Shown here: positions 1-48,471 of the stretch, piece after piece | Layout of the letters: each line of letters begins with the position of its first letter | Numbering within the stretch: position 1 is the stretch's first letter | Assembly (NCBI GenBank): GCA_949752745.1 | Contig: OX457028.1 | Location: 6,568,095 to 6,632,094, forward strand | DNA from: Protula sp. h YS-2021 | Taxonomy: Eukaryota > Annelida > Polychaeta > Sabellida > Serpulidae | DNA length: 64,000 nucleotides | Direction of reading: 5' to 3' | Made by a program: the position numbers and the translations under genes | The notes under the pieces: generated by a model | The model's database searches: none | What the model saw: the letters and a program-made list of their open reading frames with translations, nothing else | What the model was told of the DNA's origin: nothing

Positions 1-2
1 AA

Positions 3-347
3 TTTAACATTGGTGATCATGTTCGCATTTCTCACATTAAATATATGTTTCAACGCGATTATCACATCAAATGGACGCAAGAAGTCTTCATTGTCACACA
101 TCGTTGTAAGAAGCAAGGAATACATTTATATCGTGTGAAAGACTTTTTAGACGAAGATATTGATGGACATTTCTATGAAGAAGAACTGCAGAAAGTGACC
201 AAAGATATTGAATCTATTTATAGAATTGAAAAAGTCTTGAAAACACGTAAAAGACGAGGAGGAGGTGTGAAAGAATTATTTGTCAAGTGGTTAGGTTGGC
301 CAAACAAGTTTAACAGTTGGGTGAAAGAAACAGACATTCAACAATGA
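3..347 (+). CDS. Polinton integrase, C-terminal part with chromodomain (element 1, cut by window edge)
   Basis: The frame is open from base 3, so this is the C-terminal end of a longer protein that begins outside the window. The nearly identical stretch in element 2 follows an integrase catalytic core, which identifies this as the retroviral-like (DDE) integrase of a Polinton/Maverick element. The last ~60 residues (IYRIEKVLKTRKRR... then VKWLGWPNKFNSWVKETD) match the chromodomain pattern: a Y/E-rich first strand, then VKWxGWP, then NSWxxxxD. Chromodomains on such integrases are thought to guide insertion to particular chromatin. The TGA stop overlaps the ATG of the packaging ATPase by 4 nt (ATGA). 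No break is seen in the visible part. Confidence 0.9.
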   Translation, partial: FNIGDHVRISHIKYMFQRDYHIKWTQEVFIVTHRCKKQGIHLYRVKDFLDEDIDGHFYEEELQKVTKDIESIYRIEKVLKTRKRRGGGVKELFVKWLGWPNKFNSWVKETDIQQ

Positions 348-1003
348 AGCATCCATTTACATGTTTAGTCTCTGGACCTACAGGCAGTGGCAAAACGTCT
401 CTGGTGAAGGAAATTCTAGAACAAAAGTTGATTAAACCCTCTCCAAAAAGCATTTTATGGCTCTATGCAGCAGATCAGCCTTTGTACAAGGGAATGAAAG
501 GTGTGGAATTTTACCAAGGCATTCCAGATGACATTGAAGAGCGTTTTAACCCGAAGAAACCAAACTTACTTATCATTGATGACTTAATGACGAAATGTCA
601 TAGTGATGAGCGTATGACACGTCTCTTTAGTGTTGGCAGCAGTCATCAAAATCTAAGCATTATCTTTATTGTACATAATTTATTCCACCATGGGAAAGAG
701 ATGCGAAATATTAGTTTGAATACACATTATATCATTCTGTTTAAAAATCCGAGAGACAGTCAACAAATTAGTACATTGGCGCGGCAAATGTATCCTGGAA
801 GATCTCAATTTCTCATAGAAGCCTATCAAGATGCTACTAGCAAACCTCATGGTTATTTATTCATTGATTTAAAACCAAAGACAAATGATCAACTACGTAT
901 TCGTACGGGCATTTTACCAAAAGATACACATTATGTATATATTGATAAAGCAGTGTATGAACAAGAACCAACTCATTTGACCATTCGCAGTCAAGATGTC
1001 TAA
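344..1003 (+). CDS. Genome-packaging ATPase (FtsK/HerA-type), element 1
   Basis: A protein of 219 residues. Walker A is GPTGSGKTS at residues 11-19, and Walker B is LLIIDD at about 75-80, followed by LMTK. This is the A32-like packaging ATPase of Polintons and adintoviruses, expected to pump the genome into preformed capsids. I start at the ATG at 344, not the upstream TTG-initiated extension, because element 2 keeps the same ATG and the same ATGA overlap with the integrase stop. Its own end overlaps the next gene by 8 nt. The length is typical for the family. The frame is intact here, whereas the element 2 copy carries two small deletions. Confidence 0.93.
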   Translation: MKHPFTCLVSGPTGSGKTSLVKEILEQKLIKPSPKSILWLYAADQPLYKGMKGVEFYQGIPDDIEERFNPKKPNLLIIDDLMTKCHSDERMTRLFSVGSSHQNLSIIFIVHNLFHHGKEMRNISLNTHYIILFKNPRDSQQISTLARQMYPGRSQFLIEAYQDATSKPHGYLFIDLKPKTNDQLRIRTGILPKDTHYVYIDKAVYEQEPTHLTIRSQDV

Positions 1004-1322
1004 ACGTATTCGAGCGAACCAGCCGTTTCTTCATTTGCTTGCACGCAGTGGACCTAAACGACGTAAATCCTTGCTACAGCAAGCTACAAAGGAGGAATTA
1101 ACAAGCTTGTTTGAAATTTGTTTGAATATATTGCAAGGACATTTACCCTTAAGCTCAAAACGGTTTAAGGAATTTAAACGTGAACGTCATACGCTTCGTA
1201 CTCTAGCAGATAAGAAGATATCCCTTCGACGAAAAAAGAAGTTGATTAATCAGAAAGGAGGATTCATTGGAGTTATTGCTAGATTGGCATTGCCCTTGTT
1301 AGCCAAACTACTGCTAAAATGA
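996..1322 (+). CDS. Small conserved Polinton protein, 108 aa, with hydrophobic C-terminus (element 1)
   Basis: A basic protein of unknown function. A helical, Lys/Arg-rich body (residues ~15-85) ends in a glycine-led hydrophobic tail (QKGGFIGVIARLALPLLAKLL) that could be a membrane-active or buried helix. ORFs of this size and shape, with a KGGF(I/L) tail, recur beside the packaging ATPase in animal Polintons; that is recognition from memory, without a search. A capsid-internal or membrane-interacting role is only an inference. It begins 8 nt before the ATPase stop and ends in an ATGA overlap with the next gene, which implies coordinated translation. The element 2 copy carries a nonsense codon and a ~46-nt deletion just before this tail. 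Confidence 0.75.
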   Translation: MSKRIRANQPFLHLLARSGPKRRKSLLQQATKEELTSLFEICLNILQGHLPLSSKRFKEFKRERHTLRTLADKKISLRRKKKLINQKGGFIGVIARLALPLLAKLLLK

Positions 1323-1897
1323 AACATACGATGAAAATGGTCCTCATTCCTGAATATGAATATAAAATGTTGCTAGAAAAGAAGGGTAAAGATGGTGAAA
1401 TCAAAACGAAAGTGAATAAACTTTTACGTGGGAAACGAACACGTGAAAAGGCTATAGAAATATCTCAACTTCTTGGTCGTCATTTACGAACAAGTCAGTC
1501 TAGGCAGCAAAAGCCCTCATCATCATCACCACCTGAAAAGCCAGAAAAGTTATTTTTAAGTCATTTTCAACCTATCTATCATGGAAAAGTAACACAACTT
1601 TTAGCAGAACTGAAGAAATATGGTACGACATGGTCAGAGAAGAATGAACTTGTGTTGAAAACGGGCGATATTATAGCAAATTCCAACATGGTTGATTTGA
1701 TGAAAGAAGCATTGGTGGCGACAAGAAGAAAAGAACGAGCCATACCACCACATGGCTGGCATCCGTTTATCCAGGAAATTGTTGATGCTAATATTCCAAA
1801 AACAATGTTTAGTAAAAAGACCACTCGTGACGACATTACAACAGAAATGAAACAACGTCAACAAAGACGGTTTCCTGAAGGATGGGAAAATTTTTAA
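1319..1897 (+). CDS. Conserved Polinton protein, 192 aa, function unknown (element 1)
   Basis: The product starts MKHTMKMVLIPEYEYKMLLEKK, an N-terminal pattern (VLIPxxEYxxLL) that I recognise from proteins at this position in other animal Polintons. A Ser/Pro-rich linker (PSSSSPPEKPEK, residues ~62-75) separates it from a C-terminal domain that reads YHGKVTQLLAELKKYG...ELVLKTGDIIANSNMVDLMKEAL. Element 2 keeps an intact copy whose linker is longer because of a TCA-repeat run. The ATG overlaps the previous stop (ATGA), and the last 16 nt overlap the start of the tetra-cysteine gene. No enzymatic motif is visible; a virion role is inferred only from its place inside the structural cluster. Confidence 0.75.
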   Translation: MKHTMKMVLIPEYEYKMLLEKKGKDGEIKTKVNKLLRGKRTREKAIEISQLLGRHLRTSQSRQQKPSSSSPPEKPEKLFLSHFQPIYHGKVTQLLAELKKYGTTWSEKNELVLKTGDIIANSNMVDLMKEALVATRRKERAIPPHGWHPFIQEIVDANIPKTMFSKKTTRDDITTEMKQRQQRRFPEGWENF

Positions 1898-2103
1898 CAT
1901 GGCTGAAAGAGCTATGTTGTTGTTGTGAGGAAGATAAATCAACTATTCCTGTGAAGATCAGATGTACAATTGCTTGTTGTGAAGGAGAAGTCATAGATCA
2001 TCTAGATCATCATCATGATGTGAAAGACCATTTGCATACTTGGTCGAATGGCGCGCGCTATCGTGAAGTATATAGACAACGTCATCGCACCTATACCATT
2101 TAG
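1882..2103 (+). CDS. Small tetra-cysteine protein, possibly lipid-anchored, 73 aa (element 1)
   Basis: The N-terminus is MGKFLTWLKELCCCC: glycine at position 2, a short amphipathic stretch, then four consecutive cysteines at 12-15. That layout suggests palmitoylation and possibly N-myristoylation, although Lys at position 3 is not favoured in the classical myristoylation rule. A second Cys pair (ACCEGEV) and a His/Asp-rich stretch (DHLDHHHDVKDHLH) could bind metal. The C-terminus is Arg/Tyr-rich. Element 2 conserves the gene, including CCCC, but shortens the His-rich part. It starts inside the previous gene and ends 11 nt before the minor capsid gene. I do not recognise a family. Confidence 0.68.
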   Translation: MGKFLTWLKELCCCCEEDKSTIPVKIRCTIACCEGEVIDHLDHHHDVKDHLHTWSNGARYREVYRQRHRTYTI

Positions 2104-2114
2104 TTCCCACCATC

Positions 2115-2876
2115 ATGGAGTCGACAAGCTTTTACATCACTTTGCCTAGCAATGCGAGTATGAACTATTATCCCAACAACAAGGCTTCGAATTATCAAAT
2201 TCATATGCCTCGAACCATCTATCTGAATGGAAAATATGAAGTGGCTTTAGCTGAAATTCAATATCCACATACATGGACAACGATGAGACATGACATGGAC
2301 TATTCTATTCAGTATCGACAACAACCACTGACAGAGACACTTGACACTATCAATATTCCCTATGGTTATTATAGATCCATACAAGAAATATGTCAGGCAG
2401 TGAATGAAGAAGCAACTCATTCTATGAAAGATGATCTTAAAGAAGTTATTCGGATAAAGTATGATAAAATTAGACGATGTGTGTTTCTATTTCTAAATTA
2501 TGGTTTTGAAGTGTCCTTTTCCGCTGGATTGGCTGAGATTTTAGGATTTATCCCAGAGCAATGGTATACTGAAACATGTACAGCTGAACATAAAGCGGAT
2601 GTGAAACAGGGATTTTATACACTGTATGTGTATTGTAGCATTTGTGAACCACAAGTTGTTGGTGATTATTATGTGCCGTTACTACGTTCTGTTGGCATAC
2701 AAGGCCATGATGGTGACATTATCATGAAAACGTACGGCGAACCGCATTATGTTCCTGTAAACACGTCCAAATTTGACGTGATAGAAATGAATATTAAGGA
2801 CGACACAGGCCATAATGTTCCATTTCAAACTGGAAAGGTGATCTGTAAACTTCATTTTCGACCAAAAGCAATATGA
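2115..2876 (+). CDS. Penton-like minor capsid protein (element 1)
   Basis: A protein of 253 residues starting MESTSFYITLPSNASMNYYPNN, followed by NYQIHMPRTIYLNGKYEVALAEIQYPHTW. The layout (xxFYVTLPSNxSxxxYPxNxxxxY...LxGxWEVALxEIxYP) is the signature I know for the single-jelly-roll minor capsid (penton) protein of Polintons, which would sit at the capsid vertices. The family is strongly conserved and element 2 keeps an intact 253-residue copy. The start codon has a favourable context (atcATGg) and lies 11 nt after the preceding stop. The end overlaps the next ATG by 4 nt. Confidence 0.85.
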   Translation: MESTSFYITLPSNASMNYYPNNKASNYQIHMPRTIYLNGKYEVALAEIQYPHTWTTMRHDMDYSIQYRQQPLTETLDTINIPYGYYRSIQEICQAVNEEATHSMKDDLKEVIRIKYDKIRRCVFLFLNYGFEVSFSAGLAEILGFIPEQWYTETCTAEHKADVKQGFYTLYVYCSICEPQVVGDYYVPLLRSVGIQGHDGDIIMKTYGEPHYVPVNTSKFDVIEMNIKDDTGHNVPFQTGKVICKLHFRPKAI

Positions 2877-3214
2877 AAGCTTATACACACGATCCGTCTG
2901 CATATCGCAACCATTTTCTTCGTCAAGTGGGCGGGGAATTACCAGGATTCAAAGGAGCGCGAATCCAGTATGGCGATGGTATTGGTTCAATACTGGGATC
3001 ATTGGCTCGCAAAGCTATTCCACTACTTAAGGCTGGGGCTAAGATCGTTGCGCCACATCTTAAGAAGGCTGCAAAGAATGTCGCGAAAGATGTGACGGGT
3101 CGAGTAGCAGAACGTGTGTTTGGTGAACAAAAGCGTATGCAACCGACGAAACGTGCCAGAAGACGAAAAACAGCCAGACGGATAACATCAAAATATCGCA
3201 AAGATATTTTTTAA
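2873..3214 (+). CDS. Adenovirus pVI/pX-like basic virion protein (element 1)
   Basis: A 113-residue protein in three parts: an N-terminal leader with glycine-rich stretches (RQVGGELPGFKG, then YGDGIGSILGSLAR), an amphipathic helix (residues ~45-75, IPLLKAGAKIVAPHLKKAAKNV), and a strongly basic tail (KRARRRKTARR). Adintovirus relatives place a pVI/pX-like protein here. In adenoviruses pVI disrupts membranes through an amphipathic helix and pX/VII bind DNA, so this product could combine both properties (inference). The Gly motifs resemble targets of adenain-type proteases, but no exact consensus site was confirmed. It overlaps the minor capsid gene by ATGA and lies 11 nt before the major capsid gene. 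The element 2 copy is intact. Confidence 0.75.
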   Translation: MKAYTHDPSAYRNHFLRQVGGELPGFKGARIQYGDGIGSILGSLARKAIPLLKAGAKIVAPHLKKAAKNVAKDVTGRVAERVFGEQKRMQPTKRARRRKTARRITSKYRKDIF

Positions 3215-3225
3215 AGAAAAAAAAA

Positions 3226-4599
3226 ATGTCTCTCATTCATAATCATTCGTGTGAATGTAGTCTTTCTCCATTGGAATGGTTTCACGTACCACCAACGCAA
3301 ACTGCTGTAGAGAAAAGTTATAATGTTGACTATCAACCACTTACAAGCATTAGAGAAGGCGCTCCAATAGAATTCTACATTCCTGCGAGTACAGAAGAAT
3401 ATCTGGATTTAAAGAACAGCAAACTTCATATTGTATGTCGCATTCTAAAGGCTGATGGAACAGCGTGTGGCGCAGATGATAATGTCTCTTACATCAATGA
3501 TGTGTTTAATGGGTTATGGTCTAATATTGAATTGTTTCTGAATGATCGTTTGGTTTCGCATAGCAACAATACTCATGGTTATACCAGTATTATCTCTCAT
3601 CTCATCCATGATTCGGAAGAAAGTCTACATTCTGAGCGCTCTATGCGTCTCATGTATAAGGATACTGCTGGGTCAATGAATAGCTATGAGGTGAAAAGAC
3701 CTAATCATGAACAATATGTATCCGGGTTTCATGTCAATGCCGACGGCGGTGACTTGGCTGAGCAAGGCAACAATGGCTTACATCATCGTTATTTGCATAC
3801 ACGTCTTAGCCGTGATGTTATGCTTACTGGCGGTTTAAGGATAGATTTGTTTGAGCAGGATCGTTATCTTCCGAATGGTATCAGTTTGAAATTGCGTTTC
3901 CATAGACAAAAAGATGACTATGTATTGATGGCTGCAGATAATACCTATAAGGTAGAAGTGAAAGAGGCATTTTTAACCATTCGCAAAGTGAGGGTGAGTC
4001 CAGGTATTCAGTTAGGACATACAGATGCATTGATGAAAAGTCCTGCCAAGATCATCATCACTAGAAAAGAATGTAAAGTCTTGGCTATTCCAGCAGGATT
4101 TCAGTCTTTTGTGAAAGATAACATCTTTTTGGGTCAATTACCAAATCGTATTGTCATTGGTCTGGTTCATAATGAAGCTTTTGGTGGATCAGTATTGAGG
4201 AATCCATATGATTTCAAACATTTTAATCTGGACTATATGCAACTCTACACGGATGGTGAACCAGTTCTATCCAAACCTCTCAAGCTTGACATTACACAGA
4301 ACAAATACCTGGACGCTTTTGAAACGCTTTACAAATCGTTTGATCGGTTGAATGGTGAGAAAAGTTCCATTATAAAACGGGAAGATTGGCCTAGAGGTTA
4401 TGCTTTATTTTCGTTTGACTTAACACCGGATTATGATGGCGATGATCATTTCCCCCTGATCAAGCATGGGAATTTGCGGCTAGAAATGAACTTTGCTACG
4501 GCTTTGCAACATACCATCAATGTCATTGTCTATGCTGAATTTGACAACATTATTGAGATCAGTGCAAATCGCAGCATCCAATTCGACTACCAGTCATGA
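3226..4599 (+). CDS. Major capsid protein, double jelly-roll (element 1)
   Basis: A protein of 457 residues. The N-terminal region reads SLSPLEWFHVPPTQTAVEKSY, then EGAPIEFYIPASTEEYLDLKNSKLHIVCRILKADG, the conserved front of the Polinton hexon-like capsid protein (FxVPPTQTxV...PIEFxIxxxxxxYxDLxxSxLxVxxxxxxxDG). A second conserved block (FNGLWSNIELFLNDRLVSHSNNTHGYTSI) follows. The predicted fold is the double jelly-roll shared with adenovirus hexon, and the protein should form the pseudo-hexameric capsomers. The start follows a run of ten A residues. The stop overlaps the protease ATG by 4 nt. The frame is fully open, in contrast to the element 2 copy, which has one nonsense codon. Confidence 0.93.
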   Translation: MSLIHNHSCECSLSPLEWFHVPPTQTAVEKSYNVDYQPLTSIREGAPIEFYIPASTEEYLDLKNSKLHIVCRILKADGTACGADDNVSYINDVFNGLWSNIELFLNDRLVSHSNNTHGYTSIISHLIHDSEESLHSERSMRLMYKDTAGSMNSYEVKRPNHEQYVSGFHVNADGGDLAEQGNNGLHHRYLHTRLSRDVMLTGGLRIDLFEQDRYLPNGISLKLRFHRQKDDYVLMAADNTYKVEVKEAFLTIRKVRVSPGIQLGHTDALMKSPAKIIITRKECKVLAIPAGFQSFVKDNIFLGQLPNRIVIGLVHNEAFGGSVLRNPYDFKHFNLDYMQLYTDGEPVLSKPLKLDITQNKYLDAFETLYKSFDRLNGEKSSIIKREDWPRGYALFSFDLTPDYDGDDHFPLIKHGNLRLEMNFATALQHTINVIVYAEFDNIIEISANRSIQFDYQS

Positions 4600-5033
4600 A
4601 CACGAAGCAGATTGATGCTATATTGAGTCATGATGTCATGACCAAAGACTTGTTTCAAGGTGTGTTTGCCATGGACCAGTTACCGTCTTTACAACGCGGC
4701 GCCTATGTGATCAACACAGACGATCAAGATGAACCAGGAGAACATTGGGTGGCAGTGTATTATGACAAAGACCCTGCAGAATATTTTGACTCTTATGGAC
4801 TGTTCCCTCTCGATGATCGTTTAGATATGTTTTTAAGAAATGACTATATGTATAATTCTATATCATTACAAACGCCAATATCATCGTCATGTGGTTTTTA
4901 TTGTGTCTATTATATATTACATAGAGCTCGAGGTCAGAGTATGTTTGATATTGTGAATATATTAAAAAGAAAGGATGGTGATTTTATTGTAAAGGATTTT
5001 GTATATAGACATTATAAACCATTGTTTTATTAA
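4596..5033 (+). CDS. Adenain-like capsid maturation cysteine protease (element 1)
   Basis: A protein of 145 residues with the Ulp1/adenain catalytic order: His50 in GEHWVAVY, Asp65 in YFDSYG, an oxyanion-type Gln92 in LQT, and nucleophile Cys99 in SSCGFYCVYY. In adenoviruses the homologue cleaves capsid and core precursors during virion maturation; the neighbouring capsid and pVI-like proteins are the likely substrates. It is the last gene of the + strand cluster, starts in an ATGA overlap with the capsid gene, and is followed by repeats and a polyadenylation signal. The element 2 copy stops early at a TGA. Confidence 0.93.
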   Translation: MNTKQIDAILSHDVMTKDLFQGVFAMDQLPSLQRGAYVINTDDQDEPGEHWVAVYYDKDPAEYFDSYGLFPLDDRLDMFLRNDYMYNSISLQTPISSSCGFYCVYYILHRARGQSMFDIVNILKRKDGDFIVKDFVYRHYKPLFY

Positions 5034-5182
5034 TGTTGTTGTTGTTATATTAGTTAAGTTGTTGTTGTTGTTGTTATATTAGTTAAGTTGTTGTTGTTGT
5101 TATATTAGTTAAGTTGTTGTTGTTGTTGTTATATTAGTTAAGTTGTTGTTGTTGTTATATTAGTTAAGTTGTTGTTGTTGTT
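5034..5182 (+). repeat. TTG/ATATTAGTTAAG minisatellite after the protease gene
   Basis: Alternating runs of TTG and the block ATATTAGTTAAG repeat about six times between the protease stop and the polyadenylation signal. A shorter, degenerate version occupies the same place in element 2 (31,204-31,331). It probably lies in the 3' untranslated region of the structural transcript. Confidence 0.85.
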
Positions 5183-5183
5183 A

Positions 5184-5223
5184 AATAAAACAAATCAAGT
5201 TTCAAACAACTGTCTTGTTTATT
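5184..5223. terminator. Facing polyadenylation signals between the two gene modules (element 1)
   Basis: AATAAA on the + strand (5184-5189) and AATAAA on the - strand (TTTATT at 5218-5223) lie 28 nt apart. They sit where the rightward structural cluster and the leftward PC4/polymerase cluster converge. The same pair is conserved in element 2 (31,332 and 31,363), which supports a real bidirectional 3'-end region. Confidence 0.7.
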
Positions 5224-5455
5224 GTGTTGTACATACGTTTATTTACAAATTCTTAACTACAAACACTATTTACAAAGTTTACAAACACTATTTACAAAGT
5301 TTATAAACACTATTTACAAACTCTTAACTACAAACGCTATTTACACTATTTACAAATTCTTAACTACAAATTCTATTTACACTATTTACAAACTTTTATT
5401 TACACTATTTACACTATTTACAAAATTCTTAACTACAAACTCTTAACTACAAAGT
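5224..5455. repeat. CTATTTACAAA tandem array
   Basis: Short imperfect units built from CTATTTACAAA and TCTTAACTACAAA repeat across the interval. Any reading frame here is an artefact of the repeat. A similar array lies at the same place in element 2, and a related TTTACAAAG array fills the right inverted repeat of element 2. Confidence 0.85.
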
Positions 5456-5830
5456 CTATTTACAAACACATTCATTTTTCAATACATTCATCAATGAATA
5501 CCATTCATTAGAATCTAAATTGATATAGGTATCATAGACATTACATTCATGTTTGTAAATGCTATGAAAGCTCACATAATACACATCACCAAACTTTATC
5601 ACTTTAACAGTTACATGTTCAGACAGTTTCAGTTCATATCCTTCTTCTAAGTCAATGTCCATCACACGCATAGGTTGTGTCAGCTCAATGGATTTGATGC
5701 CTCGTGTAAGCCATATTTCTGTTTCTTTGAATTCAAGCGTTAGGTTCTTTCCAATCCAATGCTTGTAACAACGCGTTCCATTCCACTGTGTTGAGGGTGA
5801 TGTAGTCATAGTTTTCTGTAAGCTCGTCAT
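5456..5830 (-). CDS. Small PC4-like protein, 124 aa, distal in the - strand cluster (element 1)
   Basis: Function unknown. The last third carries predicted strands followed by YINLDSNEWYSLMNVLKN, the same 'I-L-x(2-3)-E/N-W-x-x-L-x-x-x-L' ending as its three neighbours. In the clearest member (6530-6883) that ending belongs to a PC4-type ssDNA-binding fold. The N-terminal 33 residues overlap the end of the 113-aa neighbour by 98 nt in another frame. The overlap and the MTSLQ start are conserved in element 2, so I keep this start, although a downstream start cannot be excluded. The element 2 copy is frameshifted. The PC4-fold assignment for this member is an inference from pattern and position. 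Confidence 0.6.
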   Translation of the reverse strand: MTSLQKTMTTSPSTQWNGTRCYKHWIGKNLTLEFKETEIWLTRGIKSIELTQPMRVMDIDLEEGYELKLSEHVTVKVIKFGDVYYVSFHSIYKHECNVYDTYINLDSNEWYSLMNVLKNECVCK

Positions 5831-6074
5831 ATTGGCGAAATTGTATAAACACGTCTAAGCAGTTCTCAGTCACACGCACTTCTAATTCATTTGAGACTGT
5901 CAGGAGAAAGCCAGGTATCCTGAACTTCTCTAGATGGTCTTTCAACACGGATTGGTCATCAAGTGATAGGACGAGATACTGTCCAAAATGTCTTAGCACA
6001 ATGTCATCATATTCGTTTCTCAGATATGAGAACCCATGCGTAATTGGTTTATATTCCGTTAAAAAGTCTTCCAT
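5733..6074 (-). CDS. Small PC4-like protein, 113 aa (element 1)
   Basis: The sequence runs from MEDFLTEYKPITHGF through strand-like segments (YLVLSLDDQS, LEVRVTENCLDVFIQFR) to YITLNTVEWNALLQALDW. The closing motif matches the helix that ends PC4-type ssDNA-binding domains (ILTxxxWxxLxxxL) and is shared with three adjacent genes, so I read the cluster as diverged paralogues. Element 2 has an intact 113-residue copy, which argues for selection at protein level. The overlap with the next gene downstream (98 nt) is also conserved. No Cys/His motif or catalytic residue is evident. Confidence 0.65.
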   Translation of the reverse strand: MEDFLTEYKPITHGFSYLRNEYDDIVLRHFGQYLVLSLDDQSVLKDHLEKFRIPGFLLTVSNELEVRVTENCLDVFIQFRQYDELTENYDYITLNTVEWNALLQALDWKEPNA

Positions 6075-6144
6075 CTCGTCCAGCAGTCAGATGAACTATG
6101 AGCTGTCTCCTTGTCTGCAAAGACGTTTTTTTTTTTTTTTTTTT

Positions 6145-6516
6145 TTATGCTCGCAAGATGGTGAAGAGTGGATGTTGTATCACTTCTAGGAATCGTAAGA
6201 CTGCGCGCCAGTTCTTGATATCAAAGATGATTAAATCTGTATATGGTGTATCTGGCACAACTCCCTTATAATCCTCTGGATAATCCTGTAAAAGATTTCT
6301 ACAGATTTCTACACGTATGTTAGAATCATATTCAGCCACTGTCACTTCCACTTTATTTTCAAGTCTACGTTTAAACCCATGTTCAAGTGGTATGTTTTTA
6401 AAGTCTTTCCACACTTCAGGTTTAAACCGATGATAACTTGTCTTAGAATCTAGTATCACTTCATTCCTCTCATTGACAGTAAGGTAAACACCACCGTTCA
6501 GCATGAGTGCATTCAT
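6145..6516 (-). CDS. Small PC4-like protein, 123 aa (element 1)
   Basis: The product starts MNALMLNGGVYLTVNERNEV and ends in IIFDIKNWRAVLRFLEVIQHPLF. The order of strand-like segments, basic patch (GFKRRLENKVEVTVAEY) and final Trp-containing helix parallels the neighbouring PC4-type protein. Element 2 keeps an intact 124-residue copy. The gene starts 13 nt after the stop of the PC4 gene on the - strand. Between it and the 113-aa gene, element 1 carries ~70 nt including a run of 22 T residues (6125-6146); the corresponding spacer in element 2 is only 3 nt. Confidence 0.65.
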   Translation of the reverse strand: MNALMLNGGVYLTVNERNEVILDSKTSYHRFKPEVWKDFKNIPLEHGFKRRLENKVEVTVAEYDSNIRVEICRNLLQDYPEDYKGVVPDTPYTDLIIFDIKNWRAVLRFLEVIQHPLFTILRA

Positions 6517-6529
6517 GATTGTTACCTTA

Positions 6530-6883
6530 TTATGACTTGTCGCCTTGTCTGCGAAGCCTTTTATCCACTTCTTTCACCTGCTTCTTCATCATTTTCCATT
6601 CAGGTATTGTCAGCAAAATTCCCTTTTTTGTTGGGCGGTTTTTTCCAGTCCCTTCATCTCTGAGGTATTTGCGAATGTTTACCACACCTTCATTACTTTG
6701 TTTCATAATCTTGATATACTTTCCATTGCCTAGAGAAAGCATTCCATCCCACGACTGTGGTGTTGGTACCGTCGTCTCCACTTTTAATTTCTTGATGGTA
6801 TTGTCAGGATGTTTCACAGTCATGTCTTTGACTGTATCAGCAAGAGTATCCATATCCGTTGTTGCAGATCTTTTCCTATTCAT
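6530..6883 (-). CDS. PC4/Sub1-type single-stranded DNA-binding protein, 117 aa (element 1)
   Basis: The first ~40 residues are polar (MNRKRSATTDMDTLADTVKD, then KKLKVE, a possible nuclear signal). The C-terminal 65 residues match the PC4 domain closely: LGNGKYIKIMKQSNEGVVNI, RKYLRDEGTGKNRPTKKGI, then LLTIPEWKMMKKQVKEV. The blocks 'vdIRkYxxDxxGxxxPTKKGIxLTxxxW' are characteristic. PC4 proteins bind ssDNA and melted DNA. In a protein-primed replication system such a protein could coat displaced strands or act in transcription (inference). It has its own TATA box at 6938-6945 and begins the chain of four small - strand genes. An intact copy is in element 2. Confidence 0.82.
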   Translation of the reverse strand: MNRKRSATTDMDTLADTVKDMTVKHPDNTIKKLKVETTVPTPQSWDGMLSLGNGKYIKIMKQSNEGVVNIRKYLRDEGTGKNRPTKKGILLTIPEWKMMKKQVKEVDKRLRRQGDKS

Positions 6884-6937
6884 GTTGACGCTTCAGTGTT
6901 CACACCTCAACTAACTCTAAAGTTGAAGTGTCTCCCC

Positions 6938-6945
6938 CTTATATA
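6938..6945 (-). promoter_or_regulatory. TATA box of the PC4 gene, overlapping the polymerase stop codon
   Basis: On the - strand the sequence is AGTATATAAGGGG. TATATAAG lies 55 nt upstream of the PC4 ATG, and its TAA is also the stop codon of the DNA polymerase gene. Element 2 keeps the same arrangement near 33,019-33,026. Confidence 0.75.
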
Positions 6946-9900
6946 CTGTAATGCCCATGCGCCAAAGTGGAATAGCCATCACTCATCACATATCGCTTGT
7001 CATCAAAGGGAGAGAGAGCTACTTTCCTCAACTTCTCCGAGAAAATCTGATGGTCATGACTTCGAATGATGTGTCCTGTGGTCATCGTTTGCGTTTGGTT
7101 GAACAAACTGTCTTTATACTGCTGATGTTTCATCCGTCTTTGACACGCGCGAGTGATACCTTTGGCCGTACGTTTTTCTTTCCCACCATACATCATACTA
7201 TACATTTTCGGTCGAAGTCCAACAAACTCTTCAATGGGAATGCCCGCCGTCTCATCTTTCATTTTCCCAAGCACTTTCTTGTTCACGTTGGAATGTAGGA
7301 AATGATCTGGGGGATAGTCACTTGTGTCGAACAAGTCGGCATCTTCCTGCATGTCTTTGTAGATATCGTCCGTTTCTATGTCATAACATAAACTGTCGGT
7401 GTCGCTGAACAAGAGCTTGGCGTTGGGATACTTGGTCATGATGTAGTTGTAATGAAAGTGGAACATGAGCACCTTGCTGAGGTCGAGAATGGTGAACCCA
7501 ACTTGAATGGGTTTATCCAGAAGCAGATCCACTTTGCGCAAATGTACCGCGGTTAAATCTTCGTTGAAAATTCTAAATTTGTGGAAGGAAGGTTTGACCA
7601 CAAGTTTCTTGAACCGCTTTTCCTGGTGAACAAGTTCCACATTCATGCGCTTTCTTACATTTTCCATGGTTTTGCCAAACACAGAGTTGTTCATCAATTT
7701 GAAGAAGTCTTTCTCAAACGGGTTCTTGGCCAACTTTCTCTTTTCTGTGTTCAAGGAGATGTATTTTGCCAACCATTTGCTCTGTGCAAACATAATGGCA
7801 CGATGCACCTTCGTGACTTTCAATCCCAGTGAGACATATTGCTGTAAATTTCTATAATGAAGTACATATTTCTTCTTGTCACATAAGTTGGGAATGAGCT
7901 TTTCACTAGGTTTGCCTTTCATGTTTAGATCTTTCCGTAGCTTCTGACTATGTTCTGACAATTCTCCCACCTTCACACATTTCCGTTCTGGAGCCACTGG
8001 ATAGTGATTATGACGATTATGAATGGATTGTGAGTATTCCAAATCCACTTCTAAAATGTAGCCAATCTCATCATCTTCATCCACATCCATAAAGTCAATG
8101 GATTCTGGCTCGCTCACCCACATAAATCCACTTTCCGGCATGCTTTGCGACATAGCCCAGCCATACAAGTTGTTTGCATCCAGGTAAGTCAAGTAGTTGG
8201 TTGGTTTCGTGGGATCGTAATCTGGTATGTAGGGGTTATTTGCTTTCGCATACTTGTGTGTGATGACAGATATTCCTCCACGTAAACCTTGTTCAACCAT
8301 TTGGTACATGTCAATGTCGTTGATCAATTCCAATTTCACCTTTGTCGCTTTCAACATGGCATCCCACGACAGTCCTGGCGCTGTATAGTAGTGAGCAGGA
8401 TCCAATTCATACGTGTTGAGACATACGTGACGAAAGTTTTCAAACACGTCAGCCAGCAGCAACACATCTGATTTCAGGTACAAGTCATGGTATTCGCCAA
8501 ATGTAGTACACTGGAATGTCTCCCACACCTTCTGCGCATGCGCATAATCCTCATCGCTAATGCCTTCTTCACTAAGTAGACTGTAAAACTTGTCCTTGGA
8601 CGGCAGTTGTGTTTCAGCAAACTTGGATGGCTCATCCACGTAATCATAAGGGTACACTCCCTTTCTCAACAGTAAATCTTGTTGGTCACTATTGTGAATG
8701 TGTGACGTCATGTGATAAAAGTTGTCTTTCCCTTCTGCCGCCAGGTTGGATACTAACTTCTGTAGAGAAGTACTCATGAACTGAAAGCTGTCTGTAAATT
8801 TCAGATTACTCATGGTGAATGCAATATATTTCTCAACGGTGTTGGGAATGACTGTAATCCTTTCGTTTTTGAACTTTCCAATTTCTTCCATGATTAAATG
8901 GCTGTCATAGCCTCGTAAATTGTGGAAAAACACAGGAATGATGAAAGAATCTTCAACATCCTGCTGATCTTTTCGAAATCGGAATTGCAAATTGCATTCA
9001 CTATGTGCAGCTCCGCGGTATTTGCCATTGATATGGTCATGATCTCTCACATGATCTGCTCCTAGAGGCTCATGACAAATGTAGCAATCTGTGGCGTTCT
9101 TATAATGCTCTTCATCTTCATGAGTCATGACTATTTTCTTTGGCTGTAGCAAGCCATGCACAATACGATCACGTTCATTCACCATATGGTCTAAAAAGAC
9201 TTTCACAGCATTGTCTCCTCGATATACGACTGGCGCACGTGTATCATACTGGCTCACAACCACATAAGCAAAGCTGTTTGGACGATGATGTTGATACTTG
9301 TCTCCTTCATGCTTTTTCGTGAAGCATTCAAAGTCTGCATAAATGACAAACGGCGCTCGCTGTTGTTTGGCTATATTCTTGAACTTGATGAAGGGTTCCT
9401 TGGGGAATGATAAACGTTGTGCGCCATGCTTGCCACACACTTCACGATGCTTGTCTAAAAGATCTTGTCGCATAAACCCATGAAGACAGTTGAAACAATA
9501 AAATATTGCATTCTGACGCTTTGTTCGATAAGCCATCAGTCTGCTGAAATTCTTGATGAGACAGTAATGTCTTGTCTTGTCATCGCTAATCAAAAGCAAG
9601 TTAATTTCTCTGACGCTGTTGACGCTGGTGTTTCGACTGAGTTGTATGGGAACAACGACATCATGTTCATATCCAAACACGTTAATGGACACATCATTCT
9701 CCTTTTCAAACTTTGGAATGTCTGTAATCGGTGTTGGAAATGTCATGCCTTCCACCTTCAATTCGTTCTCAAATGCTTTGTATTGATGTACACGCTCTGG
9801 GTTTACATTTGTTGAAGGGTGAAGGTGAGCCAATACAGACCATAAGAAACATTTGTTGTCTTTATTCTGAATGTTTAACACCGCCTTTGTACTCTTTACT

Positions 9901-10610
9901 TTCTTCGGTAGTGGGATAAAACTGCTTGCTTCCAGTGGCGCTGACGTTGCTGTATGCACTTCAATGAATAATATGTTATCCAACACCCAGCCAGAGCCTT
10001 GTCGCTCATGTTCATCAAACCTGGTAAACAATTCTTTATAGGCTTCTGGCAAGTCCTTCTCAATATCTGTTGGATTGTATGCTGCATACGTTGGACTACT
10101 GATGAAGGCATTATCCACTTGTTCTACCATCACGCCTTCAACATTTGGTGTCATTTTCTTGAAGCGTGCATGTACCACAATGTACCATTTCATGCCACGG
10201 TTTAACGTTTCGAACAAATGTCTCTTGATTCTATTCTCTTGTTGTCGCATTTCGAGTAACAAATCTGATCCATCTTCAGGCTCAAACCGTCTTTCCTGCG
10301 CGTTTTCACCAAGACTCACTCTTCTCCCTCTGCCTACTTGTCCTGTCTCTTTCTTTCTTTGTTCTTCATGAGGTATGCATACATGTGTCTCAAACGCATC
10401 CAAAGATGAAAATATCTTGATGCATTTACAGCAGAGGACTGGATCAGGTCTGTCAACACCATCTTGTAACGTCTTTTGTCTCTTGGCTTGAATCTGCTCA
10501 ACAAGCTCATCATGAGCACGTTTCATCCTAGTTTTCTTGCATGTATGTGCCACGAACAATTCCAGAGATGGAAATGTCACATCACAATCATGACAGTAGA
10601 CTGATGTCAT
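6939..10610 (-). CDS. Protein-primed family B DNA polymerase (element 1)
   Basis: About 1,223 residues from the ATG at 10,610 (MTSVYCHDCDV). Two C2H2-like fingers open the protein (CHDCDVTFPSLELFVAHTC and CCKCIKIFSSLDAFETHVC). A third Cys/His cluster (YCFNCLHGF, then KHREVC) precedes the exonuclease. Exo I is YADFECF (~residue 423), Exo II FFHNLRGYDSHL (~565), Exo III YLKSDVLLLADVF (~710). Polymerase motif A is LDANNLYGW (~810), motif B MNNSVFGKTMEN (~975), motif C FSDTDSLCYD (~1070). An HNH/endonuclease VII-like zinc insert (CYICHEPL, then RDHDHINGKYRG) lies between Exo I and Exo II. This is the Polinton PolB, which replicates the linear genome from a terminal protein. The upstream GTG-initiated extension is rejected because it begins right next to the TATA box. 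The frame is intact. Confidence 0.93.
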   Translation of the reverse strand: MTSVYCHDCDVTFPSLELFVAHTCKKTRMKRAHDELVEQIQAKRQKTLQDGVDRPDPVLCCKCIKIFSSLDAFETHVCIPHEEQRKKETGQVGRGRRVSLGENAQERRFEPEDGSDLLLEMRQQENRIKRHLFETLNRGMKWYIVVHARFKKMTPNVEGVMVEQVDNAFISSPTYAAYNPTDIEKDLPEAYKELFTRFDEHERQGSGWVLDNILFIEVHTATSAPLEASSFIPLPKKVKSTKAVLNIQNKDNKCFLWSVLAHLHPSTNVNPERVHQYKAFENELKVEGMTFPTPITDIPKFEKENDVSINVFGYEHDVVVPIQLSRNTSVNSVREINLLLISDDKTRHYCLIKNFSRLMAYRTKRQNAIFYCFNCLHGFMRQDLLDKHREVCGKHGAQRLSFPKEPFIKFKNIAKQQRAPFVIYADFECFTKKHEGDKYQHHRPNSFAYVVVSQYDTRAPVVYRGDNAVKVFLDHMVNERDRIVHGLLQPKKIVMTHEDEEHYKNATDCYICHEPLGADHVRDHDHINGKYRGAAHSECNLQFRFRKDQQDVEDSFIIPVFFHNLRGYDSHLIMEEIGKFKNERITVIPNTVEKYIAFTMSNLKFTDSFQFMSTSLQKLVSNLAAEGKDNFYHMTSHIHNSDQQDLLLRKGVYPYDYVDEPSKFAETQLPSKDKFYSLLSEEGISDEDYAHAQKVWETFQCTTFGEYHDLYLKSDVLLLADVFENFRHVCLNTYELDPAHYYTAPGLSWDAMLKATKVKLELINDIDMYQMVEQGLRGGISVITHKYAKANNPYIPDYDPTKPTNYLTYLDANNLYGWAMSQSMPESGFMWVSEPESIDFMDVDEDDEIGYILEVDLEYSQSIHNRHNHYPVAPERKCVKVGELSEHSQKLRKDLNMKGKPSEKLIPNLCDKKKYVLHYRNLQQYVSLGLKVTKVHRAIMFAQSKWLAKYISLNTEKRKLAKNPFEKDFFKLMNNSVFGKTMENVRKRMNVELVHQEKRFKKLVVKPSFHKFRIFNEDLTAVHLRKVDLLLDKPIQVGFTILDLSKVLMFHFHYNYIMTKYPNAKLLFSDTDSLCYDIETDDIYKDMQEDADLFDTSDYPPDHFLHSNVNKKVLGKMKDETAGIPIEEFVGLRPKMYSMMYGGKEKRTAKGITRACQRRMKHQQYKDSLFNQTQTMTTGHIIRSHDHQIFSEKLRKVALSPFDDKRYVMSDGYSTLAHGHYSI

Positions 10611-10670
10611 CGTTGTTGTTTCTTCAACTGCTAGAACTGAAATGAAGTAAAATATACGTTTCACTCTTCC

Positions 10671-10677
10671 TTTTATA
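10671..10677 (-). promoter_or_regulatory. TATA box of the DNA polymerase gene (element 1)
   Basis: GGTATAAAAGGAAG on the - strand lies about 61 nt upstream of the polymerase ATG. Element 2 has the same sequence upstream of its polymerase remnant. Both are followed by TTTTACTTCATTTCAG, which resembles a 3' splice site, so a short spliced leader is possible. Confidence 0.65.
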
Positions 10678-10679
10678 CC

Positions 10680-10968
10680 ACTTCAATGGTGTGTTGACTC
10701 AGCAGAATGTATCACTAGTTGACTAGTTGACATGTTTCACTCATGCTTTTATGTTACTTCCATGTAATCAAAATATGGTGTGTAACTTTTCAAACTTGTT
10801 GAAAAATGTTAAAATTGCTGACTCAGCAGAATTTTACTTGTGTATATGAATGTCTCACTTACAGTTGTGAAGTTGTACAGCTGCACTGCTGCACAACAGA
10901 GACATCTAGCGGTGAAGTTAACTGACGGTGAAGTCAAATGGTCTACCAAATGGTATTCATCCGCCAAC
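10680..10968. repeat. Part of the right terminal-repeat region of element 1, ending at a breakpoint
   Basis: This stretch matches the inner part of both terminal inverted repeats of element 2 (36,700-37,000 and, inverted, 21,690-21,890). Shared marks include a T-MARE, the phrase GTTACACACCAT (as its complement), CTCACTTACAGTTGT and TCTAGCGGTGAAGT. Homology stops after TGGTATTCATCCGC at about 10,968; a new sequence with CA dinucleotides and two divergent genes follows. The outer CRE-bearing end of the repeat is not found in element 1. Confidence 0.7.
10816..10828. promoter_or_regulatory. Perfect T-MARE/AP-1 palindrome (element 1)
   Basis: TGCTGACTCAGCA is a complete 13-bp Maf recognition element that contains the AP-1 core TGACTCA. 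A partial copy (TTGACTCAGCA) lies at 10,694-10,704. Both lie upstream of the polymerase promoter. bZIP regulation is an inference. Confidence 0.6.
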
Positions 10969-11051
10969 TAGACCTGAAATGTGATAAAATGTATTCTCTC
11001 TCACACACACACACAGACAGACATGTTTTGCTTCATTTCATAATATAGCAT

Positions 11052-11067
11052 GGCCCTTAAAAGGGCC
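11052..11067 (-). promoter_or_regulatory. Histone-type 3' stem-loop after the Cys-rich gene
   Basis: On the - strand the sequence is GGCCCTTTTAAGGGCC, a 6-bp stem GGCCCT/AGGGCC closing the 4-nt loop TTTA. It fits the animal histone-mRNA consensus GGYYYUHHUHARRRCC at every position. It lies 19 nt after the stop codon of the - strand gene, close to where the histone element sits. The + strand reading (loop TAAA) breaks the loop rule, so the signal fits only the strand of the gene. A purine-rich GAAATGAAG about 15 nt downstream could act as a histone downstream element, but the match is weak. Confidence 0.62.
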
Positions 11068-11086
11068 GAAAGATGTTAGTACTTCT

Positions 11087-11452
11087 TCACCAGCAAGTGG
11101 GATTTCCACAATCACACTGGTATCTGTAAAACTGCTCCATGGAGAAAGGCCTTCTCGAGCACTTGAACGGATGAAAATTGTAATAGCCGAAGTTTTTCAG
11201 CGTCGCACCGCACCACCAGCAGTCCGTGCATGGCTCCGGTCCTGACAATCTTGCAGTAAACTTATACCAGAGCAATCCACCACAGGTTTTGCAGCAGTAA
11301 TGCCGTGGTGCGTTGTGGTGTACTGGGCAGTTGTGTGGTTGACCTGGGTACTCCAACCACACCCAACACTTATAACATTCTGTCGTTAGTGTCACTACCC
11401 TGCCGTCTCGCATCACTTTCTTACTTGTCGTAGTAGCTGGTATGTTGTCCAT
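11087..11452 (-). CDS. Intronless Cys-rich zinc-binding protein, 121 aa, unknown family
   Basis: The protein has at least five CxxC-type pairs: ECYKCWVW, CCKTCGGLLW, CTDCWWCGA, CDCGNPTCW, plus HNCPVHH. It therefore probably folds as two or three zinc ribbons. Aromatic residues are unusually frequent (many W, Y, F). A TATA box lies 58 nt upstream and a histone-type hairpin 19 nt downstream. It is divergent from the RING gene at 11,998. No LxCxE motif is present. I do not recognise the family. Compact, TATA-driven and intronless structure resembles the neighbouring viral genes more than host genes, so capture by or origin in a Polinton is likely but unproven. Confidence 0.7.
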   Translation of the reverse strand: MDNIPATTTSKKVMRDGRVVTLTTECYKCWVWLEYPGQPHNCPVHHNAPRHYCCKTCGGLLWYKFTARLSGPEPCTDCWWCGATLKNFGYYNFHPFKCSRRPFSMEQFYRYQCDCGNPTCW

Positions 11453-11509
11453 GATGTGTCTAATGATGTCTGTCTATGTCTGACGGTGTCTGAGCCTTGA
11501 GACACTACA

Positions 11510-11517
11510 CTTATATA
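11510..11517 (-). promoter_or_regulatory. TATA box of the Cys-rich gene
   Basis: CGTATATAAGTG on the - strand, 58 nt upstream of the ATG. The same TATATAAG form precedes the PC4 gene and appears in the right arm of element 2. Confidence 0.65.
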
Positions 11518-11579
11518 CGATTTTATCATGCTGAATCAACGATTTTATTACGATGAACAGCACAATTTTTTTTTCGCTC

Positions 11580-11891
11580 GCCGGGGGGGGGGGGGGGGGT
11601 CGGTACATAGTATGTTTATAGGGGGGGGGGGGTCGGTACATAGTATGTTCATGGGGGGGGGGGGGGGTCGGTACATAGTATGTTCATGGGGGGGGGGGGT
11701 CGGTACATAGTATGTTCAAGGGGGGGGGTCGGTACATAGTATATTCATTGGGGGGGGGGGTCGGTACATAGTATGTTCAAGGGGGGGGGGGGTCGGTACA
11801 TAGTATATTCATTGGGGGGGGGGTCGGTACATAATATGTTCAAGGGGGGGGGGTCGGTACATAGTATATTCATTGGGGGGGGGGGGTTCGT

Positions 11892-11931
<40 letters not shown>
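11580..11931. repeat. Poly-G minisatellite and poly-T tract between the divergent genes
   Basis: About eight units of a G run (8-18 G) followed by TCGGTACATAGTATGTTCA or a close variant, then a run of about 33 T. The complement of the unit core (CATACTATGTACCGACCCCC) occurs in the second-family terminal repeats at ~51,610 and 62,945-63,050, linking this module to that Polinton family. The G runs could form G-quadruplexes and are prone to length change. The long frame across this array is a repeat artefact. Confidence 0.85.
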
Positions 11932-11933
<2 letters not shown>

Positions 11934-11947
11934 AATGATGTCATTTT

Positions 11948-11962
11948 ACTATATATATATAG
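11948..11962 (+). promoter_or_regulatory. TATA box of the RING gene
   Basis: ACTATATATATATAGG lies about 36-50 nt upstream of the ATG at 11,998. Spacing resembles the other early-type genes of the window. Confidence 0.6.
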
Positions 11963-11997
11963 GTGTGCTCTCTTCACAACTTCCACAGAATACCATC

Positions 11998-12552
11998 ATG
12001 GAGTGCTGTTTCGCTTTAGAGAATTCGTTAGTTATCCGAGACATTACAAAGGTGGATTTAATGTACCACCCTACAGCGCATGAACCGGTGCGAGAATTCT
12101 TCTTGCAGCTGTTTCCAGATCCGGCTCGTGCTGTCACCATCGCTATGCCAGTTCTACTCAACAGGGATGTTATGATTGGGAAGCGGCTTAGTGATATTGA
12201 ACAGGGCAGATACCAAGAGGCGTACATCAGATCAGTCGTCCTGGGGGAAGCAACGCCATCCCATTTAGAAGAGGAGGAATACCCGGCCTGGGCTGGATAC
12301 TTTATGCTTCAACACATCAATCTATGTCGCGGGTGTGGCTGTCTGATAGGTGCAGACAAGGTTATTGCTGCCGCTTGCGGTCATCAAGCATGTATATCTT
12401 GTTCTGTCGCGCGTGCCTATCAGGCAGCCTTACGGCATGAGTATCTCCTCAAGTGTTTATGCTGTGGGACAAAGACGAATCACTTCATATTTAATGGTCA
12501 GCAGATGACTCAGTGTGGTAGGCGATACCAAAATGTTATCACCTTTTGCTGA
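11998..12552 (+). CDS. Intronless RING-HC finger protein, 184 aa, candidate ubiquitin ligase
   Basis: The C-terminal third carries a complete C3HC4 RING: C-x2-C (CRGC), 13 residues, C-x-H-x2-C-x2-C (CGHQACISC), 17 residues, then C-x2-C (CLCC). RING-HC domains recruit E2 enzymes for ubiquitin transfer. The N-terminal ~115 residues (MECCFALENSLVIRD..., with an acidic EEEEYPAW) match nothing I know and may bind a substrate. I start at the ATG at 11,998, after the TATA box; the longer upstream frame only runs through the minisatellite. A histone-like hairpin with the canonical TTTC loop follows 34 nt after the stop. It is divergent from the Cys-rich gene. Confidence 0.78.
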   Translation: MECCFALENSLVIRDITKVDLMYHPTAHEPVREFFLQLFPDPARAVTIAMPVLLNRDVMIGKRLSDIEQGRYQEAYIRSVVLGEATPSHLEEEEYPAWAGYFMLQHINLCRGCGCLIGADKVIAAACGHQACISCSVARAYQAALRHEYLLKCLCCGTKTNHFIFNGQQMTQCGRRYQNVITFC

Positions 12553-12586
12553 ACAACACTAACAGTGAGGAGTTTCAACTCCAGGC

Positions 12587-12602
12587 TGCTCTTTTCAGAG
12601 CG
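12587..12602 (+). promoter_or_regulatory. Histone-type 3' stem-loop after the RING gene
   Basis: GCTCTTTTCAGAGC (12,588-12,601) is the exact core of canonical animal histone-mRNA hairpins (stem GCTCT/AGAGC, loop TTTC). The outermost pair of the usual 16-mer is a T-G wobble here instead of G-C, and a further GGC/GCC pairing extends the stem to 9 bp. It begins 34 nt after the stop codon on the same strand as the gene. No convincing histone downstream element was seen. Confidence 0.66.
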
Positions 12603-12739
12603 GCCGCCACTTATTACAAAATAAGCAAAACAATTTATCATGGTGTTGGTATATGTGTGTATGCATGAGAGTGTGGGAAATGGAAAAAAAAAGTTACCGT
12701 CTGTCCGTCTGCCCGTCTGACCGTCTGTCTACCATCTGC

Positions 12740-12905
12740 CGATTCTGCAGCAGAACCAACGTTGGTTCTGCTGCAATGCAAAACATAGGTTCTGCAATGC
12801 AAAACCAAACGTTGGTTCTACTGCACTGCAGTAGAACCAACGTTGGTTCTGCTGCAGTGCAGCAGAACCAACGTTGGTTCTGCTGCAGTGCAGTAGAACC
12901 AACGT
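12740..12905. repeat. Cluster of nested AACCAACGTTGGTT palindromes
   Basis: Four head-to-tail copies of palindromes centred on AACGTT. The longest reads GCAGCAGAACCAAC with its exact complement immediately after (28 bp, no loop). Adjacent palindromes are joined by CTGCAGTGCAG-type links that are themselves self-complementary, so the stretch can form cruciforms. Frames on both strands are artefacts. Confidence 0.85.
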
Positions 12906-12916
12906 TTTCACCCTAC

Positions 12917-13760
12917 TCAGCACGCTGTAACACACCACATATGTCAACAGTTCACGAAATATGTCAACAGCCCATGCGCTGCATCACGCGAGCCAACACA
13001 CACATGGGCATGAAGGCACCAGGGGGACTCCACCCCAGCACGCTGTAACACACCACATATGTCAACAGTCCACGAAATATGTCAAAAGCCCGTGCCCTGC
13101 ATCACGCGAGCCAGCACACACATGGGCATGAAGGCACCAGGGGGACTCCACCCCAGCACGCTGTAACACACCACATATGTCAACAGTTCACGAAATATGT
13201 CAACAGCCCATGCCCTGCATCACGCGAGCCAACACACACATGGGTACGAAGGCACCAGGGGGACTCCACCCCAGCACGCTGTAACACACCACATATGTCA
13301 ACAGTCCACGAAATATGTCAAAAGCCCGTTCCCTGCATCACGCGAGCCAGCACACACATGGGCATGAAGGCACCAGGGGGACTCCACCCCAGGACGCTGT
13401 AACACACCACATATGTCAACAGTTCACGAAATATGTCAACAGCCCATGCCCTGCATCACGCGAGCCAGCACACACATGGGCATGAAGGCACCAGGGGGAC
13501 TCCACCCCAGCACGCTGTAACACACCACATATGTCAACAGTTCACGAAATATGTCAACAGCCCATGCCCTGCATCACGCGAGCCAACACACACATGGGTA
13601 CGAAGGCACCAGGGGGACTCCACCCCAGCACGCTGTAACACACCACATATGTCAACAGTCCACGAAATATGTCAAAAGCCCGTGCCCTGCATCACGCGAG
13701 CCAGCACACACATGGGCATGAAGGCACCAGGGGGACTCCACCCCAGCACGCTGTAACACA
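12917..13760. repeat. 118-bp satellite, about seven copies
   Basis: The anchor CACGCTGTAACACACCACAT recurs exactly every 118 bp (12,921; 13,039; 13,157; 13,275; 13,393, first base changed; 13,511; 13,629; 13,747). Two subtypes (AACAGTTCAC versus AACAGTCCAC) mostly alternate, giving a 236-bp higher-order period. Since 118 is not divisible by 3, the ~107-residue frames seen here are not genes. Confidence 0.92.
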
Positions 13761-22498: not shown

Positions 22499-23127
22499 AT
22501 GGAGAACAAGACAAGCAGCTTTAAAATTAGTGCCAACTTAACCATTACTGTGGAGCATGGAGAATATGGGCCATTTCTACGCATCACACGTGGAAAGAGA
22601 GATGGTGTGCTTATTCACCATCTTTGTGGAAGATTGTGTGTCAAAGCTTGAAAAATTTACGCGACATTGGCTTCAAACTATACTTAACGCAAACGAAGTG
22701 GCTTGAAGTCATTTCATACTTGGATATGCGTTATGTGAGTTTTGTGCGCACGTCACGGTTTGAAGGGAAAGAATACACACATCACATCAACATGAATGAT
22801 GGTGAATGGGAGACACTGCTTCAGGAGATGGACAACATCAACTCAGCCCTATCACCATGTGAGGAATGTCATGACAAGAAAACGATCATCAAGCTGCAAA
22901 AGGATGGTCGGATGAAGGTGTCAAAGCTATCCAAGAAAAGGCTGGCTGAAGTTCAGTTGGAGAACATGAACGTACAAAATCAACTTGGACTTACCTGCGA
23001 CTATTGTGGTGCTTGTGGATATGTGGAGGATTATCATTGCCACTGTCACAAGTATAATTGCAAGATGTGTGAACCAAACAACTTCTGCGGCAAGTGTGGA
23101 GTACTTAAAGTCTGTGAAGCAAAGTAG
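22499..23127 (+). pseudogene. PC4-like zinc-ribbon gene, copy 1, frameshifted (element 2)
   Basis: The first part (from MENKTSSFKISANLTITVEH) stays open to a TGA at 22,649. The rest continues in another frame from ~22,600 to 23,127. Compared with copy 2 it carries 2 extra nt near 22,595-22,620. The first half shows two PC4-like endings (GFKLYLTQTKWLEVISYL and INMNDGEWETLLQEM). The C-terminal third is Cys/His-rich (CDYCGACGYVEDYHCHCHKY, then CGKCG), most likely one or two zinc ribbons. An ssDNA-binding role is inferred. An intron spanning the break is possible but no good splice sites were noticed. Confidence 0.62.
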
Positions 23128-41592: not shown

Positions 41593-41859
41593 AACAAGGT
41601 TCTCTACAATTGTTCACTCTCTTGCTTTACGCTATTGATCGTACAATATTTGCAAAGTCAACACGTATTGATTTGACACAGGCATATATATACGATATAC
41701 CTCCCAAAAGATAATGCGCCATATGCGAGGATAAAGGTCTCCACAGTGTAAAAGTGCCAAAGATTGATATACAATAAGCGACAGTAAACAAAAGAGAACA
41801 ATCCAACGAATTAGTGAGACTGTGTCGTTCTAAATAGGAAAGTGAAACTGAGGATTATA

Positions 41860-47617: not shown

Positions 47618-47772
<155 letters not shown>

Positions 47773-48459: not shown

Positions 48460-48471
48460 TATATATATAAA

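Follow-up and report, generated by a model that had tools for sequence, protein, structure and literature searches.

Two accounts of histone mRNA (PMC6303110, PMC10388802) state that, among the mRNAs of metazoans, only the replication-dependent histone mRNAs are known to lack a poly(A) tail; according to the second, the smallest RNA that SLBP binds with wild-type affinity is the stem-loop (SL) flanked by two adenines on its 5' side and one on its 3' side. In the main text of a survey of vertebrate Mavericks (PMC8097293), the words 'histone', 'stem-loop' and 'polyadenylation' do not occur. Among the open-access matches listed, none reported a histone-type 3' end for genes of Polintons or of other non-histone mobile elements. 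Hairpin terminators are described for mimivirus transcripts, and the hairpin 3' ends of mimiviruses and virophages resemble the present case in lying near the transcript ends of virus-like genes; they are not known to have a histone-type sequence or any tie to SLBP or U7.

The window, i.e. the whole 64-kb stretch of DNA analysed, contains the right part of one Polinton (copy 1) and a complete second one (copy 2). Near the right end of copy 1 there are two divergent genes, intronless as read; behind each, on the strand of that gene, stands a histone-type SL. The features are the following.

1..12917, no strand: right part of Polinton copy 1; the whole element is C5:6561851-6581011, with its left end in L033
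6939..10664, - strand: PolB-like large ORF adjoining the gene pair; its family-B homolog is 59.6% identical over 1209 aa
11024..11038, - strand: histone-downstream-element-like sequence AAATGAAGCAAAACA, 13 nt past SL1
11052-11067, - strand: SL1, GGCCCTTTTAAGGGCC, histone-type stem-loop 19 nt past the TGA of the Cys-rich gene
11087-11452, - strand: Cys-rich protein gene, intronless ORF of 121 aa with 13 Cys, ending in TGA
11576..11890, no strand: G-run minisatellite between the divergent Cys-rich and RING genes
11998-12552, + strand: RING protein gene, intronless ORF of 184 aa with C3HC4 spacing, ending in TGA
12587-12602, + strand: SL2, TGCTCTTTTCAGAGCG, histone-type stem-loop 34 nt past the TGA of the RING gene
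12618..12632, + strand: histone-downstream-element-like sequence AAAATAAGCAAAACA, 15 nt past SL2
12917: right terminus of copy 1, CACCCTACT, one of two matching termini
12918..12923, + strand: target-site duplication CAGCAC, the same six bases being found left of the element in L033
20929-38471: Polinton copy 2, complete, with inverted repeats and AGTAGG..CCTACT termini, flanked by CACTAC

Copy 1 contains an integrase (its C-terminus lies in the window), an ATPase, a capsid-like protein, a protease and the PolB-like protein, plus the Cys-rich/RING pair. The ORF at 6939..10664 is presumably a protein-primed DNA polymerase B and the capsid-like ORF, which has no match in Pfam, is taken to be the Polinton double-jelly-roll capsid; both are homologous among copies. 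Pox_A32 and Chromo score above the Pfam cut-off, whereas rve (19 vs 32.6) and Peptidase_C5 (20.7 vs 21.3) remain below it; the integrase result comes from copy 2, to whose integrase that of copy 1 is homologous. An A32-type ATPase, a chromodomain integrase and an adenovirus-like protease are present, as are inverted repeats, AGT..ACT ends and 6-bp duplications (CAGCAC for copy 1, CACTAC for copy 2). In these respects, in the putative PolB and capsid genes, and in having accessory regions at the ends, the elements are like known Polintons/Mavericks; they differ in that the accessory genes bear histone-type 3' ends. The first-pass annotation had described the pair as a divergent, intronless zinc-finger pair that is Polinton-linked. 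Both ORFs stand as described, TATA-like boxes precede both start codons on our reading of the sequence, and the pair is located inside the element itself, between PolB and the right end, as its matching termini and the CAGCAC duplication demonstrate.

Copy 1 carries a further RING gene at its left end (L033 5227-5775, - strand), which is likewise followed by this SL and this downstream element; its protein is 47% identical to that of the window. The terminal repeat of copy 1 spans the later part of the RING gene and its 3' region. At its right end copy 1 has near-perfect palindromes (AACGTTGGTTCTGCTGCA units; 12745-12907), which give sub-threshold microRNA-like matches in Rfam. The Cys-rich/RING pair is absent from copy 2, in whose left arm there are two Cys-rich ORFs in tandem (22624-23127 and 23581-24069) and an ORF with a NADAR domain (24678-25052; Pfam PF08719).

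Concerning the two proteins, neither contains a histone domain in Pfam, and neither gene encodes a histone. The Cys-rich protein is 56% identical to its family-B homolog over 105 aa and gave nothing of note in Pfam, PHROGs or PDB sequences. The RING protein is 31% identical to the 177-aa family-B RING protein over 111 aa (E 3e-14); it has C3HC4 spacing, gave no match in a Pfam search, and may act as a ubiquitin ligase, while its family-B relative has weak, sub-threshold Pfam RING matches. Searches of PHROGs with both proteins gave no match, and PDB sequences gave nothing for either but one weak, unrelated match for the RING protein. In viral_contigs there was no match for the two proteins, the capsid or PolB, nor for the DNA pattern of PolB or a pattern of the SL with flanks; the phage collection, queried with the Cys-rich protein alone, gave none either. 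Single-sequence AlphaFold models of the two proteins are unusable (pLDDT 37.5 and 45.5). Homology between the Cys-rich and RING proteins was not accepted (BLASTP E 0.015).

The hairpin that had been claimed behind each gene, on the strand of that gene, is indeed there, 19 and 34 nt after the stops. Both SLs have a 6-bp stem with a G-C second pair, a U-A closing pair and a U-H-Y-H loop. SL2 is the less canonical of the two: its 14-nt core (12588-12601) has a U-G outer pair and the flanks extend the stem to 9 bp. A strict SL class was defined by a 6-bp stem containing no more than one G-U, a G-C second pair, a pyrimidine 5' arm, a U-A closing pair and a U-H-Y-H loop. Both strands of the 64 kb contain two members, exactly SL1 and SL2, against an expectation of 0.0775 (mean of 400 dinucleotide shuffles), a comparison to be read with the fact that the definition was written with both SLs already in view. 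As the rest of the window contains no strict SL, none stands behind its other Polinton genes. Generic hairpins of 6 bp and a 4-nt loop are barely enriched in copy 1 (18 and 19 per strand vs 15.8 in shuffled sequence). Chance as the origin of the SLs was rejected, given two found vs 0.0775 expected, a shared 15-mer and recurrence at other loci; so were DNA palindromes, given the near-background number of generic hairpins and the sense-strand position behind genes.

Against the Rfam histone 3' stem-loop family RF00032, SL1 scores 26.2 bits (E 0.0039, whole window, all families) and SL2 alone 12.7 bits (E 0.47 for 71 bases), and SL2 is unlisted in Rfam searches of the whole window and of 2 kb. 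The first-pass annotation had named covariance scores under the family threshold as evidence against its idea, and both SLs do lie under it, the gathering score being 34. The sequences before the stems also depart from the histone type: the 5' flanks are CTTTC and CAGGC on the window SLs and CCAAA or CTAAA on host H1 genes, so that the 5' adenines of CCAAA are absent from both window SLs.

An inverted-repeat search surfaced a 15-mer common to the 3' ends of both genes (AAATGAAGCAAAACA/AAAATAAGCAAAACA). The two versions are identical at 13 of 15 positions at matching offset, a value reached twice in 4000 segment shuffles and once among up to 4000 random real pairs. The whole 3' regions of the genes align with a score of 48.5 vs a best of 47.5 in 3000 shuffles, a narrow margin, and common descent of the two regions may explain part of that score. 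Host H1 genes have an SL followed by AAAATAAGCAA or GAAATAAGCAA (5 genes), with the element RAAATAAGCAA at +12 after the SL in the three genes measured. An element 10-20 nt past the SL is likewise present in the window pair and resembles that of host H1 in sequence; CAAAATAAGCAAAA is common to the element of the RING gene and one host H1 gene (L014). Histone 3' ends used for comparison are those of H1 only, and H1 alone was recognised among histone genes around the H1 copies in three 10-kb stretches. A search of the host genome for U7 snRNA with RF00066 was without match, and control genomes likewise gave none.

RF00032 was then used to search the animal's own genome (863 Mb, E<=1e-3), where the best candidates were scored, so that the number of hits is a lower bound. 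At least 73 hits were found, at least 63 of them above the cut-off; the window SLs are not among them. At least 54 of the at least 73 have one identical score, 37.4 bits; relatives of the window SLs reach this value, which is above the cut-off. We examined 29 of 73 loci, namely 10 of the 54, 5 at H1 genes and 14 others. In 21 of the 29 the SL is behind a RING or Cys-rich gene in another Polinton-type copy, six are behind histone genes (five H1 and one broken H2B-like copy) and two have no gene just upstream that could be found (L018 and L024). All ten equal-score loci that were read follow a 177-aa RING gene related to that of the window. Among the 14 others, nine are behind RING genes homologous to the window's (L019-L023, L026-L028, L030), one is behind a Cys-rich fragment homologous to the window's (L029) and one behind a family-B Cys-rich gene. 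The SL of L024 is on the RING side of a Cys-rich gene, where no RING was detected. At L018 (1237; L045 7037, + strand) an SL with a downstream element has no identifiable gene upstream and is about 4.2 kb from a RING gene. L025 (C9:38609847) is the broken H2B-like copy, named by eye, with its SL intact. In L029 (C6:68936972), a close relative of copy 1, the match to the Cys-rich gene is confined to a 29-residue piece, and a frame of 91 aa, of different sequence, terminates upstream of the SL.

In family B, four consecutive genes each have an SL 16-23 nt after the stop (L009/L010 and L011/L012 were read at length). These encode a 104-aa homolog of the Cys-rich protein, a 67-aa protein, a RING protein and a 105-aa protein. 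The capsid, protease and PolB ORFs of the window have homologs in these elements, with identities of about 65.6, 60.7 and 59.6%, respectively. One family-B SL is palindromic and can be read on the opposite strand too. Behind the 125-aa second RING-like ORF of family B (L010, about 452-957, + strand) there is no strict SL.

Because these loci had been chosen by the score of their SL, partner genes outside that choice were inspected. There are eight: the Cys-rich genes at L019, L022, L024, L026, L027 and L028, and the RING genes at L029 and L045. Five of the eight have a strict SL and three have an altered SL at the same place (L038: loop changed and second pair G-U; L040: stem broken; L045: outer pair mismatched). 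No Cys-rich partner was found near L020, L021 and L023 (L042-L044); in L030 the Cys-rich SL persists though the gene is largely lost. The alignment (A5) comprises 24 strict Polinton SLs, 18 of them distinct; L025 and L018 were left out, and the three altered SLs are reported separately. It includes two SLs with no detected gene body upstream (L024, + strand; L030, - strand), the RING label of the former (L024R) being assigned by position alone. Pairing in A5 is 100% because only strict SLs were admitted. Two of the six pairs vary, with nine cells changed on both sides and one on one side; the covariation score was reached by none of 500 shuffles and the number of doubly changed pairs by 38 of 500. 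Concerning the genes, dN/dS is 0.12-0.39 in the 6 of 21 pairs with computable dS, two of these values being rough because dS is >2; dS was not computable in the other 15, as expected with saturation. Hairpins in homologous modules of other copies, whose absence would have counted against the idea of the first-pass annotation, are therefore found, with the downstream element and with compensatory changes.

Looking at A5 as a whole, the likeness to histone 3' ends covers the 6-bp stem, the UUUA/UUUC loop, the short distance from the stop and an H1-like downstream element, which a fixed regular expression matches in 22 of 24 SLs. The 3' ACCCA is present in 10 of 24 and is missing from the window pair. 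The differences are that the genes are non-histone and inside a mobile element, and that the two 5' adenines mostly fail, standing before 2 of 24 SLs; binding of SLBP may for this reason be weaker or different.

The shared H1-like element and the recurrence in other copies argue for function. On sequence grounds, the Polinton accessory genes of this animal very probably use the host histone-type 3'-end machinery. It is also probable, with somewhat less assurance, that a virus-like DNA transposon has put its whole accessory module under the SLBP/U7 histone pathway of the host, giving replication-tied, non-histone, non-polyadenylated mRNAs. The earlier suggestion that the pair adopted histone-style 3' ends gains support from the H1-like element, the recurrence and the compensatory changes. 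The Polintons carry an accessory module of a Cys-rich protein and RING proteins, with two more short proteins in one family, and in the proposed mechanism the transcripts of this module end in a copy of the host histone signal. The SL may be bound by SLBP, and the histone downstream element 10-16 nt past it may pair with U7 snRNA; cleavage of the pre-mRNA would fall a few bases past the hairpin, and no poly(A) tail would be added. The module proteins may then be made alongside histones, in S phase or in the germ line and early embryos, times at which replication and integration would profit a DNA transposon most.

Dual-mode 3' ends, in which the SL is bound and serves stability, storage or translation while the main mRNAs are polyadenylated downstream, are a possible but rather unlikely alternative. 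AATAAA or ATTAAA occurs within 200 nt past 6 of 24 Polinton SLs, and also downstream of three of three H1 genes; a human H2A pre-mRNA is processed by either route (PMC9756948). The window pair, however, has neither signal within 250 nt after the stops, which fails to set it apart because just 4 of 15 other window ORFs have one, and the downstream element is retained at histone spacing.

A captured ancestral histone 3' end, carried along without function, is improbable. Family-B copies at six loci, compared over 3 kb, are 97.5-99.1% alike, so that their identity by itself says little, and three partner genes have altered SLs. Between families, however, dS behaves as with saturation in most pairs, yet the SL persists, with paired changes, and it stands behind four different genes of one element. 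A virus-type hairpin terminator independent of SLBP and U7, as in mimivirus transcripts, is more improbable still: the element is virus-like and its hairpins are behind genes, but the core and loop have the specific sequence of histone SLs, the downstream element is like that of host H1, and the other Polinton genes of the window have no strict SL. That the SLs are a DNA-level feature of inverted repeats, or chance palindromes, is hardly credible: the RING SL of copy 1 does lie within sequence repeated at both ends, with strong palindromes at 12745-12907, but SLs are on the sense strand at short, regular distances past the stops and are also behind the Cys-rich gene and four family-B genes.

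The histone-type reading, if true, would break the rule that reserves the SL 3' end for replication-dependent histone mRNAs and would tie the expression of Polintons to S phase, to oocytes or to embryos, linking it concretely to the replication of host DNA. The accessory genes would offer natural non-histone clients of SLBP and U7, and their SLs, mostly without 5' adenines, would let one probe the importance of the individual parts of the signal.

Elsewhere in the window, 41589-52885 and 52989-63998 form a large tandem duplication, about 11.4 kb apart, inside which a 224-aa ORF looks, by eye, like an exon of a BTB-BACK protein.
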